Below are positions 9,013-12,115 of a DNA stretch of 39,374 nucleotides, in pieces; the stretch's first letter is position 1, and each line of letters starts with the position of its first letter. The position numbers were made by a program, and so were the translations under genes. The DNA is taken from the NCBI GenBank assembly GCA_027450005.1, contig DAIDKO010000058.1, positions 1 to 39,374 on the forward strand, written 5' to 3'. This DNA is from Rhodanobacter sp. GTDB taxonomy: Bacteria; Pseudomonadota; Gammaproteobacteria; Xanthomonadales; Rhodanobacteraceae. Under the pieces are notes generated by a model. The model was not told where the DNA came from. It made no database searches and was given only the letters and a program-made list of their open reading frames with translations.

Positions 9013-11055
9013 ATGAAAAAAGAATTCGTCATCCGCATCCTTTTCATCGAGCACTCGGTCGAGGAAGCGGAACAGATCATCAGCCTGCTGCGCAATAGCG
9101 GTATCGCGGTGCGTCCGGCGCGTGCCACCGCCGCGGACCAGGTGCAGGCCGCTCTGGTCGAGTTGGAGCCGGACCTGGTGCTATTCGACCCTTTCAACGG
9201 CGCCGTCACCCTGCCCGAAGTTGTGCGCATGCTGGACGCCCGTGGCAACGACTACTCTCTGCTCGGCTTGGTCGGCACGCTGGAAAACCACCAGATCGCC
9301 GAACTGTTCGAGCAGGGCGCACAAGGTATCGCCATGCGTGGGATGCCCAGCCAGTTGCTGGCTGTTCTGCGGCGCGAATTCGAAGCCCTGCAGAACCGCC
9401 GCATGCTGCGCCGGCTGGAGGCCACCCAACGCGAACTGGAACGGCGCTGCGAAGCGCTGCTCGATTCCTCTTGCGACGCCATAGCCTACGTGCATGAGGG
9501 GGTGCACGTGCGTGCCAACCAGTCCTACCTGGAGACGTTTGGCTACGAAAGCTTCGACGACCTGCTCGGCATGCCGATCCTCGACATGATCGACGCCGTC
9601 GACATCGAGGAATTCAAGAACCTGTTGCGCGGCCACACCCGCCAGGAAAAGCTGCCGAATCAGGTCAGCCTGCGCGCGCGCCGCGCCGACGGCGACCAGT
9701 TCGACGCCAACGTAGAGTTTTCCCCTGCGACATTCGAGGGTGAGCCCTGCCTGCAGATAGTGTTCCGCCGCCAGGCGGTCGACCCGGCCATGATCGAACA
9801 GTTGCAGCGCGATCCGGTCACCGGCCTGTTCAACCGCGCACACATCCTGGAGCGCATCGACCACGCGGTCACGGACGCCGCCAAGGGCAAGAAGGGCCGG
9901 GCACTGCTGCTGATCGAACCCGACAATTGGAACACCCTGGTCAGTGGTATCGGGCTGGCCAAGGCCGACGAGTTGCTGGTCGGCTTCTCCAACCGGGTGC
10001 GTATGTTGCTGGACGCCAACGACATCGCCGGCATGCTGGCCGAACACACGCTGGGCGTGATACTGGACGCCCGCTCGGACGATGCCATCCGCGAGTGGAT
10101 CACCCAGCTGCAGCAAAGCATTTCCGGCGAAATCTTCGATGTCGGCTCGCACTCTCTCGTGGTCACCGCAAGCGTCGGCGGCAGCCTGCTGGGCGAAAAG
10201 AACGCCAATGCCGAGCTGCTGCTCAACCAGGCCAGCCAGGCCCTGCGCACCGCACAAAGCCTGGGTAGCAACCAGTTGGAACTGCACGACCCCGCGGCGC
10301 GCGAGAAGGCCGACGAGGAGCGTGAGCGCTACTGGCTGGACCTGCTGCGCAAGGCGCTGGAAGGCAAGGGCCTGATGCTCTACCACCAGCACACCATCAG
10401 CCTGCAGGACGCCGAAGGTGACTATTCGGAGATCCTTTTGCGCATGGAGGGTCCGCAGGGCGAGGTCTTGCCCGGCTTCTTCATGCCGATCGCCGACAAG
10501 CATGGCCTCACCGGCGCCATCGACCGCTGGGTGCTGGACCAGGCCATCAGCGCCCTGCAACGACGCGAGGGCATGGGCCAGCAGACCACGTTCTTCGTCA
10601 AGTTAACCGCCGCCTCGCTGCAGGATCACACCTTCCTGGATTGGCTGAGCAACCGCTTCGCGCAGGCCGGGCTCAAGCGCGGCCGCCTGGTGCTCGAGAT
10701 GACCGAGAGCAAGGTGATGACACTGCTGCGTCCGGCCCAGGAGTTCCTCACCGGCTGGAAAAAGGTCGGCGGGCGCTTCGCGCTGGAGCAGTTCGGCTCG
10801 GGTCTCAGTTCGTTCCAGTTGCTTGGACACATCGACGCGGACTACATCAAGATCGACCGTAGCTACATGGCCGACCTGGCCAAGTCTCCCGACAACCAGA
10901 AGAAGGTCGCCGAGATCTGCAGGCAGGCACGCGAACTGAAGAAGCTGACCATCGCCGAATGGGTCGAAGATGCCACGAGCACCTCGCTGCTGTTCTCCGC
11001 CGGGGTGGACTTCGTACAGGGCAACTTCCTGCAGGTTCCGCAGCGCCTGGATTAA
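9013..11055 (+). CDS. fimX: FimX-like protein: REC-PAS-GGDEF-EAL with degenerate catalytic motifs
   Basis: The 680-residue protein has a receiver-like domain (1-125), a short helical linker, a PAS domain (about 145-260), a GGDEF-like domain beginning DPVTGLFNR (about 265-425) and an EAL-like domain (about 430-680). The GGDEF signature region reads AEHTLGVIL, so no active cyclase site remains. In the EAL domain the name motif is EILLRM, and the DDFGTG loop is EQFGSG, losing metal ligands. The phosphate acceptor area of REC is also atypical (LVLFDPFNG). This is the pattern of FimX in Pseudomonas and Xanthomonas, a c-di-GMP receptor that controls type IV pilus assembly with PilZ partners at the cell pole. 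No pilus genes are in the window. The gene stands alone between epmB and the rplS intron region. Confidence 0.78.
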   Translation: MKKEFVIRILFIEHSVEEAEQIISLLRNSGIAVRPARATAADQVQAALVELEPDLVLFDPFNGAVTLPEVVRMLDARGNDYSLLGLVGTLENHQIAELFEQGAQGIAMRGMPSQLLAVLRREFEALQNRRMLRRLEATQRELERRCEALLDSSCDAIAYVHEGVHVRANQSYLETFGYESFDDLLGMPILDMIDAVDIEEFKNLLRGHTRQEKLPNQVSLRARRADGDQFDANVEFSPATFEGEPCLQIVFRRQAVDPAMIEQLQRDPVTGLFNRAHILERIDHAVTDAAKGKKGRALLLIEPDNWNTLVSGIGLAKADELLVGFSNRVRMLLDANDIAGMLAEHTLGVILDARSDDAIREWITQLQQSISGEIFDVGSHSLVVTASVGGSLLGEKNANAELLLNQASQALRTAQSLGSNQLELHDPAAREKADEERERYWLDLLRKALEGKGLMLYHQHTISLQDAEGDYSEILLRMEGPQGEVLPGFFMPIADKHGLTGAIDRWVLDQAISALQRREGMGQQTTFFVKLTAASLQDHTFLDWLSNRFAQAGLKRGRLVLEMTESKVMTLLRPAQEFLTGWKKVGGRFALEQFGSGLSSFQLLGHIDADYIKIDRSYMADLAKSPDNQKKVAEICRQARELKKLTIAEWVEDATSTSLLFSAGVDFVQGNFLQVPQRLD

Positions 11056-11136
11056 CTGCACGCAACAGCAGTGGCGGTGCCTTTCCGGGCCCCCGCTTCA
11101 ATCAGGCAACGAGGTTCGCCCCTAGCAGTGCCCGGG

Positions 11137-11643
11137 TCGGGTCGGGAGCCGGAATCCTCCGCCCCCTCCCCCACCACCGGACAGCCGGTTCCGCATACGT
11201 CGGATCCTGTCGATCGCCACGCTCACTCAGGCGAACGCAGTGCTCTTGAGTTTGTTTCGTTCGCCATGCCGCCTGTCGTCCCAGGGACACCCCGATCACC
11301 TTCCGGACTTTCGGCCCTTCCAGCTCCGACCACAGCCCCTGGCTTGCGCCGGGACTTCGGCCCGAGACGCGCAGACGTCACGCGTGACTGGCCACTGGTG
11401 AAAGGCTCGGCCCTTCGGTCATGCCGCACCTACGATCACCGCGGCTGACGTGACGGATCCTGGGGTTTGCCTGTGGAAACTCCGGTTGACCACGCCCAGG
11501 CACCTTGATGGCGTTGGCCCGGAGGGTCCACCTGCTTTCGCTCGCCTCACGCCGCAAGCTGGCGTTGAGGGAGGCGTCCCTACCATCTTGCCGGGCGAGT
11601 AGAAGACTTTCACCTTCTGGCAGGCGCGCCCTGCCGGGCGCAC
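11137..11643 (-). mobile_element. ORF-less group II intron (probable class C) after the rplS terminator
   Basis: No protein gene is present between fimX and rplS, but the minus strand carries group II intron landmarks. The 5' end is GTGCGCCCGG at 11643, followed by AGAAGGTGAAAGTCTTCTAC. Near the 3' end GACGTATGCGG, an inner loop and TGTCCGGTGG (about 11176-11212) resemble domain V. A G-rich hairpin and CTCCCGACCCGAC at about 11137-11150 resemble domain VI and the 3' terminus. The 5' end lies four bases after the T-run of a perfect 10-bp terminator hairpin, the preferred target of class C introns. The length is about 0.5 kb, too short for a reverse transcriptase gene, and I find no RT motifs in any frame. 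It could be a splicing-competent derivative mobilised in trans or a dead remnant. The exact 3' boundary and domain V pairing are uncertain. Confidence 0.62.
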
Positions 11644-11646
11644 CAC

Positions 11647-11676
11647 GAAAAAGCCGCGGATCGCTCCGCGGCTTCT
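11647..11676 (-). terminator. Terminator of the rpsP-rimM-trmD-rplS operon
   Basis: Perfect 10-bp stem AAGCCGCGGA / TCCGCGGCTT (11651-11674) with loop TCGC, followed on the minus strand by TTTTTC. It is 40 nt after the rplS stop and may also serve fimX from the other side (CTCTTGTTTT). It is immediately followed by the putative intron 5' end. Confidence 0.88.
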
Positions 11677-11716: not shown

Positions 11717-12115
11717 TTAGTCGGCGCTGGCGGCAGCAGCCTTGTTTGCGGCCTTGATCGCGGCGGCGGCGGCGACGTCTTCCTTGATGCGGGCAGCCTT
11801 GCCTTCCAGGTTGCGCAGGTAGTACAGCTTGGCGCCGCGCACCTTGCCCTTACGCTTCACTTGCAGCGACTCGATCGTCGGGCTGTGCGCCTGGAACACG
11901 CGCTCCACGCCGGTACCGTGAGAAATCTTGCGTACGGTGAAGGCCGAATGCAGGCCGCGGTTGCGCTTGGCGATGACGATGCCCTCGAAAGCCTGCACGC
12001 GCTCGCGATTGCCTTCCTTCACCTTGACGTTGACCACCACCGTGTCGCCAGCGCCGAACTCCGGCAATTGGCGGGTGATCTGCTCGGCTTCGAACTGCTG
12101 GATGATCTTGTTCAT
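11717..12115 (-). CDS. rplS: 50S ribosomal protein L19
   Basis: L19 sits at the 30S-50S interface. The 132-residue product begins [13 protein letters not shown] and contains the family core [33 protein letters not shown] in order, then [16 protein letters not shown] and RRGKVR-like [14 protein letters not shown]. The C-terminal 25 residues form an Ala/Lys-rich extension beyond the usual 115-residue length. It is the last gene of the conserved rpsP-rimM-trmD-rplS operon, 70 nt after trmD, and is followed by a strong terminator. Confidence 0.97.

Follow-up and report, generated by a model that had tools for sequence, protein, structure and literature searches.

A 508-nt insertion behind the rplS terminator of a Rhodanobacter genome, almost certainly a relic of an ORF-less group II intron of class C type

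Results

An insertion downstream of rplS

The window, by which we mean the whole 39,374-nt stretch of DNA analyzed here, comes from a Rhodanobacter genome of 2.9 Mb in 164 contigs (88% complete). Read on the minus strand, it carries rplS, with the TrmD gene beyond it, followed by the rplS terminator hairpin and an insertion of 508 nt, whose other neighbor encodes a PAS-GGDEF-EAL protein (called fimX in the earlier reading). An earlier sequence-only reading of this locus had proposed an ORF-less class C group II intron, and the features of the locus can be listed as follows.

11717 to 12115, minus strand: rplS (ribosomal protein L19), as the earlier reading had named it (TIGR01024, E 5.7e-47)
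11650 to 11675, minus strand: rplS terminator hairpin, then the rest of its T-run, the target of the insertion (fold of -20.1 kcal/mol; same hairpin without insertion in the sister genome G011)
11136 to 11643, minus strand: whole intron-derived insertion, 508 nt (empty site in G011; empty in 14 of 14 other genomes of the genus; homology to ORF-less introns)
11587 to 11643, minus strand: intron 5' end and start of domain I (GTGCGCCCGG...GGTGAAAGTC...CCCGGCAAG), which over 57 nt has 84-91% identity to both reverse transcriptase (RT)-bearing and ORF-less introns of class C
11451 to 11586, minus strand: left end of an IS110-family element; neither its transposase gene nor the greater part of intron domain I is present (matches to sequence upstream of transposase starts)
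11416 to 11449, minus strand: intron resumes in the region just before domain IV, the RF01998 region in the sister intron (alignment to G200 and others)
11208 to 11415, minus strand: ORF-less domain IV module of about 200 nt, structured (alignment and covariation; profile trained without the window copy, E 0.0069)
11136 to 11207, minus strand: degenerate domains V and VI with the 3' end ...CCCGAC (RF00029, 15.2 bits at 11136-11205 against a gathering score of 40)

The insertion starts at 11643 with GTGCGCCCGG, four bases past the T-run of the terminator, and GGTGAAAGTC lies at 11614-11605; both motifs were found where the sequence-only reading had seen them. In G011, the nearest sister genome, the rplS stretch is 96% identical to the window, and the same terminator and a recognizable 3' flank are present with nothing between them (TTTTTCGTG joined directly to CCGGGCG), whereas in the window GTGCGCC...CCCGAC (11643 to 11136) separates the two flanks. 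Folding and this empty site bear out the claimed position four bases behind the hairpin and its T-run. The empty site also sets the 3' end at 11136, and the insertion is therefore 508 nt long; the segment had been drawn as 11137-11643, with the correct 5' end and a 3' end one base short. Moreover, the insertion is absent from the rplS locus in all 14 other genomes of the genus that were examined, where rplS runs into the neighboring gene (identified by a BLAST match in 13 genomes and read by eye in G007).

The rplS hairpin was found by folding. A terminator consensus scan reported a hairpin on the plus strand only, the minus-strand one probably having been missed because part of the T-run was counted as stem. 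Two mechanical ORFs of at least 90 aa on the plus strand (10959-11249 and 11071-11448) reach into the insertion; the segment aligns to introns that carry no ORFs at these positions.

Relatives of the window copy

Long matches to the window copy were found on contig C134 of its own genome (86% identity over 304 nt, E 4.1e-98), in G200 (81%, E 1.9e-79) and in G003 (79%, E 7.0e-68), followed by G194 and G193, and homology of this strength to C134, G200, and G003 excludes a chance likeness. G003 is Rhodanobacter glycinis, and the same match is present on NZ_FOSR01000002.1 (R. glycinis MO64). The introns of G200, G003, and G193 (R. glycinis and two metagenome genomes) are full-length and RT-less, with 627, 628, and 693 nt, respectively. 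All three pass RF02001 and RF01998 (domains I-IV) and RF00029 (domains V and VI), which places them in the group II family. The Rfam domain V check proposed for the window itself thus comes out positive in these sisters and negative at gathering level in the window. The earlier description of an element of about 0.5 kb without RT holds for the absence of an RT; the full-length form in the nearest relatives is 627-693 nt.

The source genome contains 12 RF00029 domain V matches (11 above the cut-off) and five RVT_1 matches. The full-length RT-bearing relative for which a genome search had been suggested lies on contig C28, an intact intron of 1887 nt encoding a 468-aa RT. Class C RTs lack an endonuclease domain; the C28 RT has RVT_1 and GIIM only and may be of that class. 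No RT was found in the window copy or its ORF-less relatives. The window copy and the C28 intron have in common the initial 57 nt, some sequence ahead of domain IV, and the 3' end. RT-bearing introns taken to be of class C, such as C28, have the same 5' GTGCG, domain I start, 3' end, and terminator target, and the C28 core aligns with the cores of the full-length ORF-less sisters. However, the ORF-less family has no RT in domain IV and carries a different structured RNA of about 200 nt there, and in the window copy, in addition, most of domain I is missing and domain V is damaged. The sequence-only reading depended on there being related introns with the same ends, and these do exist.

All 11 ORF-less copies with an examined 5' end start behind a hairpin and T-run. 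Together with the empty sites, this indicates insertion behind an intrinsic terminator without target duplication, as in group IIC introns. We take the family to belong to class C, an assignment that is partly general knowledge and is based on the insertion target, on the intron ends, and on the CGC read at the triad in the sisters. When a plasmid collection was searched with the G200 element, 594 records matched it to some extent; in the part examined, the RT-less type was present in Citrobacter freundii (IncC), Pseudomonas putida, Aeromonas caviae (IncP), P. veronii, and P. alcaligenes.

A shared structured domain IV without RT

Domain IV of the RT-less introns is 193-208 nt long and was aligned in nine sequences (alignment A1), leaving out G194, which is truncated, and P. 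alcaligenes, whose domain IV is 99.5% identical to that of Aeromonas. The consensus fold has 32 pairs, 13 of them with compensatory changes, and 92.7% of the cells pair. The observed covariation score was reached by none of 500 shuffles and the number of further pair types by 64 of 500. These figures overstate independence, since one alignment served both to derive the structure and to score it, and since three of the four plasmid sequences are 90% or more alike. To avoid circularity, homology between the two groups was then assessed by reciprocal profiles, each trained on one group. The profile of four plasmid sequences detected G193 (E 1.3e-16), G200 (5.3e-13), G003 (1.9e-12), C134 (2.3e-5) and, weakly, the window copy (E 0.0069), and the profile of five Rhodanobacter-type sequences detected the five plasmid copies (E 1.1e-11 to 7.4e-7).

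The same profiles gave no significant match to 10 RT-bearing introns, the best values being E 0.058 (G715) and 0.084-0.089 (two Pseudomonas introns, in both of which the match falls near the RT gene start). Domain V was placed by pattern in nine of these 10 introns, and the RT frames are short in G715 (280 aa) and PsHD6515 (347 aa). An origin of the module as an RT remnant was considered and rejected, since nine RT frames gave E values below 0.001 only upstream of the RT start, in the stop-to-stop extension of the C28 frame. A Pfam search with domain IV frames of two relatives found nothing convincing (only TMEM100, E 0.24).

The module looks rare in the collections searched. With at most two candidates scored per genome, it was present over most of its length in two of 398 genomes sampled across the order (the source genome and G003) and, among 233 genomes in the family, in four others (G003, G193, G194, and G200); a class-wide scan of 369 genomes, again with at most two candidates each, recovered intron ends or domains I-III and no domain IV interior. 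The domain IV pattern had no matches in a viral contig collection and four in a genome contig collection; among plasmids, the Aeromonas domain IV turned up in 11 of 72,556 records.

RT-less cores without a single origin

In a tree of the cores (domains I-III of seven RT-less and 10 RT-bearing introns), the Rhodanobacter-type RT-less introns fall inside an RT-bearing clade with a bootstrap of 100, separate from the Pseudomonas and Aeromonas ones. The final tree omits the window copy and C134, whose cores are incomplete, and G094a, G094b, and G663, whose RT status is unproven. A single origin of the RT-less cores was rejected (AU p 0.000175), and the rejection held up under another model, with fewer taxa, and when either core half was used by itself (p 0.0002 to 0.017). 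Domain IV may therefore have passed between introns by exchange, and the data are as compatible with an old module that RT genes displaced repeatedly. An apparent conflict between core and domain IV in G193 was dropped, as the two topologies are compatible splits.

An ancestral module, carried by several core lineages and repeatedly displaced by RT genes, also predicts ORF-less cores that are not monophyletic among RT-bearing ones, and the weak matches at E 0.06-0.09 in G715 and, near the RT start, in the two Pseudomonas introns could be its traces or chance. The module nevertheless looks rare by each of the order, family, and plasmid counts given above, and this history, rather than spread by exchange, seems unlikely to us. 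It is also quite unlikely that the window copy is a simple and recent RT-deletion derivative of a C28-like intron rather than a member of an older ORF-less lineage. Such derivatives do exist (one with an RT-like tail in G150 and short ones in C150 and G181), and the C28 intron has both ends in common with the window copy. However, the module is common to copies in other genera and on plasmids, yielded no RT remnant, and has only the weak matches just mentioned among the 10 RT-bearing introns.

Recent movement on plasmids and the helper RT

Two plasmid copies were compared with empty relatives. Relative to the IncP plasmid pB8, the Aeromonas copy shows an insertion of 682 bases; relative to NZ_CP022359.1, the Citrobacter copy shows one of 684. 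The compared flanks, 819 and 617 nt, respectively, are 100% identical. Both insertions have GTGCG...GAT ends, a unique junction, and no target duplication. The site is filled in four and empty in 11 of the 15 IncP matches listed, and filled in one and empty in five of the six listed for the Citrobacter-type site. As the insertions are exact and their flanks identical to those of empty plasmids, the RT-less introns must have moved very recently. By analogy with Thermosynechococcus elongatus, it is a natural inference that an RT acting in trans presumably moved them. The mobilization in trans that had been suggested for the window element is thereby supported for the family and not for the window copy.

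The C28 RT is an intact helper candidate in the source genome. No RT was detected in G003 (99% complete), G193 (79%), or G200 (82%) by the RVT_1 profile or by tblastn with the C28 RT, and in G194 (99% complete) the RVT_1 profile found nothing and tblastn matched only 51 residues; positive controls were the source genome and G002. Because repeats go missing from draft assemblies, this absence is provisional; or the helper RT of the introns in these four genomes may have been lost, which counts against the explanation we prefer. In G003, another terminator is followed by a second intron 5' end (L155), with no 3' end in the stretch examined, which is a truncated relic in a genome without detectable RT.

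Anatomy and decay of the window copy

Instead of a complete domain I, the window copy has 57 nt of it, and residues 58 to about 193 (some 136 nt) are an IS110-family end. This sequence recurs immediately upstream of IS110-type transposase start codons at three loci (L046, L055, and L061) and of a transposase-like start at a fourth (L003, on contig C12 of the source genome). The L061 protein matches Pfam PF02371 and PF01548, and the hand-translated C12 fragment gave no match. In the window, the IS110 end stops just ahead of the expected transposase ATG, and intron sequence begins again a short way ahead of domain IV. A DEDD/Transposase_20 transposase, as is characteristic of the IS110 family, follows the same left end in the relatives, and none is present in the window. 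From the features of its ends, we take the element to be IS1111-like.

The junction between the intron and the IS110 end (...CCCGGCAAG followed by ATGGTA) occurs at two loci of the source genome, in the window (11451-11643) and at L003 (C12, 1501-1691). A pattern search returned 28 rows with three exact matches, two in the source genome and one in G172. Simple independent events do not explain the same junction in the window and C12; either a site-specific IS targeted the intron, or the composite was copied after the insertion.

Domains V and VI at the far end are real, as the earlier reading had seen, and they are degenerate. No Rfam family matched the window at gathering level, and low matches (WT1-AS_3, naRNA4, and others), all below gathering, were set aside as chance. 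RF00029 had no match at E 10 in a 711-base search and reached 15.2 bits (E 0.45) in a 111-base search of the window copy, against 48.6 bits in the G200 sister. Five pairs of the domain V model are non-standard in the window copy, compared with one in G200, and the triad position, placed by reading the alignment, is CGA rather than the CGC of G200. The role of the triad (AGC or CGC) follows PMC12350094. The window domain V is predicted to be too damaged to function, and we almost certainly have a relic here. Incomplete, too, in the stretches examined, are the further RT-less copies of the source genome: C134 is without the 5' part, C152 without most of domains I-III, and C12 without the 3' part, and in C98 only about the last 80 nt align.

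Hence, of the proposed ORF-less class C intron, the class C descent, the missing RT, and the terminator site stand, and its completeness does not. A complete and functional intron in the window would fit the correct ends, the terminator target, and the conserved domain IV, but we regard it as very improbable given a domain I that is mostly an IS110-family end and a domain V with the low score, the five non-standard pairs, and the CGA described above. A host non-coding RNA or rplS 3' regulatory element unrelated to introns, which the position of a structured segment (z-score -2.07) in the intergenic space after a ribosomal protein gene might suggest, is refuted by the empty sites, the absence in all 14 other genomes of the genus, the relatives with intron ends at other loci, and the Rfam group II matches of the full-length ones.

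Discussion

We consider it likely, with good confidence in the scenario as a whole, that an ORF-less class C intron was inserted in trans behind rplS, was then entered by an IS110-family element and shortened by deletion, and is now a relic. The empty site records the insertion itself, in which an ORF-less intron of about 0.6 kb would have entered behind the rplS terminator in an ancestor, probably by retro-insertion with an RT supplied in trans. An IS110-family element, whose end is visible in the anatomy, would have entered domain I after that, and a deletion would then have taken the transposase and the rest of domain I, leaving the 508-nt mosaic. With domain V decayed, the copy should neither splice nor move. 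The family as a whole would be a ribozyme whose domain IV is a structured non-coding RNA where other introns have the RT gene, inserting behind terminators. The RT would be supplied by a different class C intron, for example the intact 468-aa RT of C28, and such supply in trans is suggested by the recent exact insertions of RT-less introns in plasmids.

A broader picture is possible, which we put forward tentatively. In proteobacterial class C introns, a rare domain IV cassette, a structured non-coding RNA of about 200 nt, may have been exchanged between introns and have taken the place of the RT gene in several ribozyme lineages. The resulting introns would be small parasites, dependent on RTs recruited from other introns in various genera and carried along by conjugative plasmids, much as SINEs are in eukaryotes, and the window would hold a dead copy.

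A close known case is the TeI3 ORF-less introns of T. elongatus, which, according to PMC2882425, spread and are mobilized in trans by the RTs of related introns, still show recognizable remains of the RT gene at its two ends, and go back to one deletion. Compared with TeI3 as treated there, the present family is likewise a set of RT-less introns that spread. Unlike TeI3, it has no RT remnant that we could find, its cores are not monophyletic, and it is of class C type and occurs in several genera and on plasmids. A 2015 review, in the sections bearing on such introns, describes ORF-less group II introns as rare in bacteria, introns without RT as having lost retromobility, and RT-less introns as nearly always accompanied by a related RT, with one exception (PMC4424553). 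Against that picture, RT-less introns of class C type have here entered plasmid backbones exactly and very recently, and a 99%-complete R. glycinis genome carries an RT-less intron although no RT could be detected in it. Should the domain IV common to these introns turn out to recruit an RT, trans-mobilization of a ribozyme could be tested directly with a naturally minimal part. We recognized no description of this RT-less class C group in the open-access papers searched, although an earlier description is possible.

Further intron derivatives were seen along the way. On contig C150 of the source genome (L116, about 1461-1960), an RT-less deletion derivative of a different 5' subtype lies directly behind the 3' end of another intron, giving tandem introns. 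At L063 (G181, 1475-1544), a deletion derivative of about 70 nt keeps both intron ends behind a terminator, and at L047 (G150, 1310-1575), about 0.26 kb with both ends behind a terminator retains an RT-coding-like tail. A class C-type intron on plasmid p3 of Caballeronia zhejiangensis (L095, about 1501-2340) is interrupted elsewhere by an IS110-like transposase stretch, as judged by eye. Finally, contig C104 of the source genome (L019), which has the best RF00029 match of that genome, carries a 595-aa RT frame with a C terminus that looks HNH-like by eye; this intron probably belongs to a different group II class.
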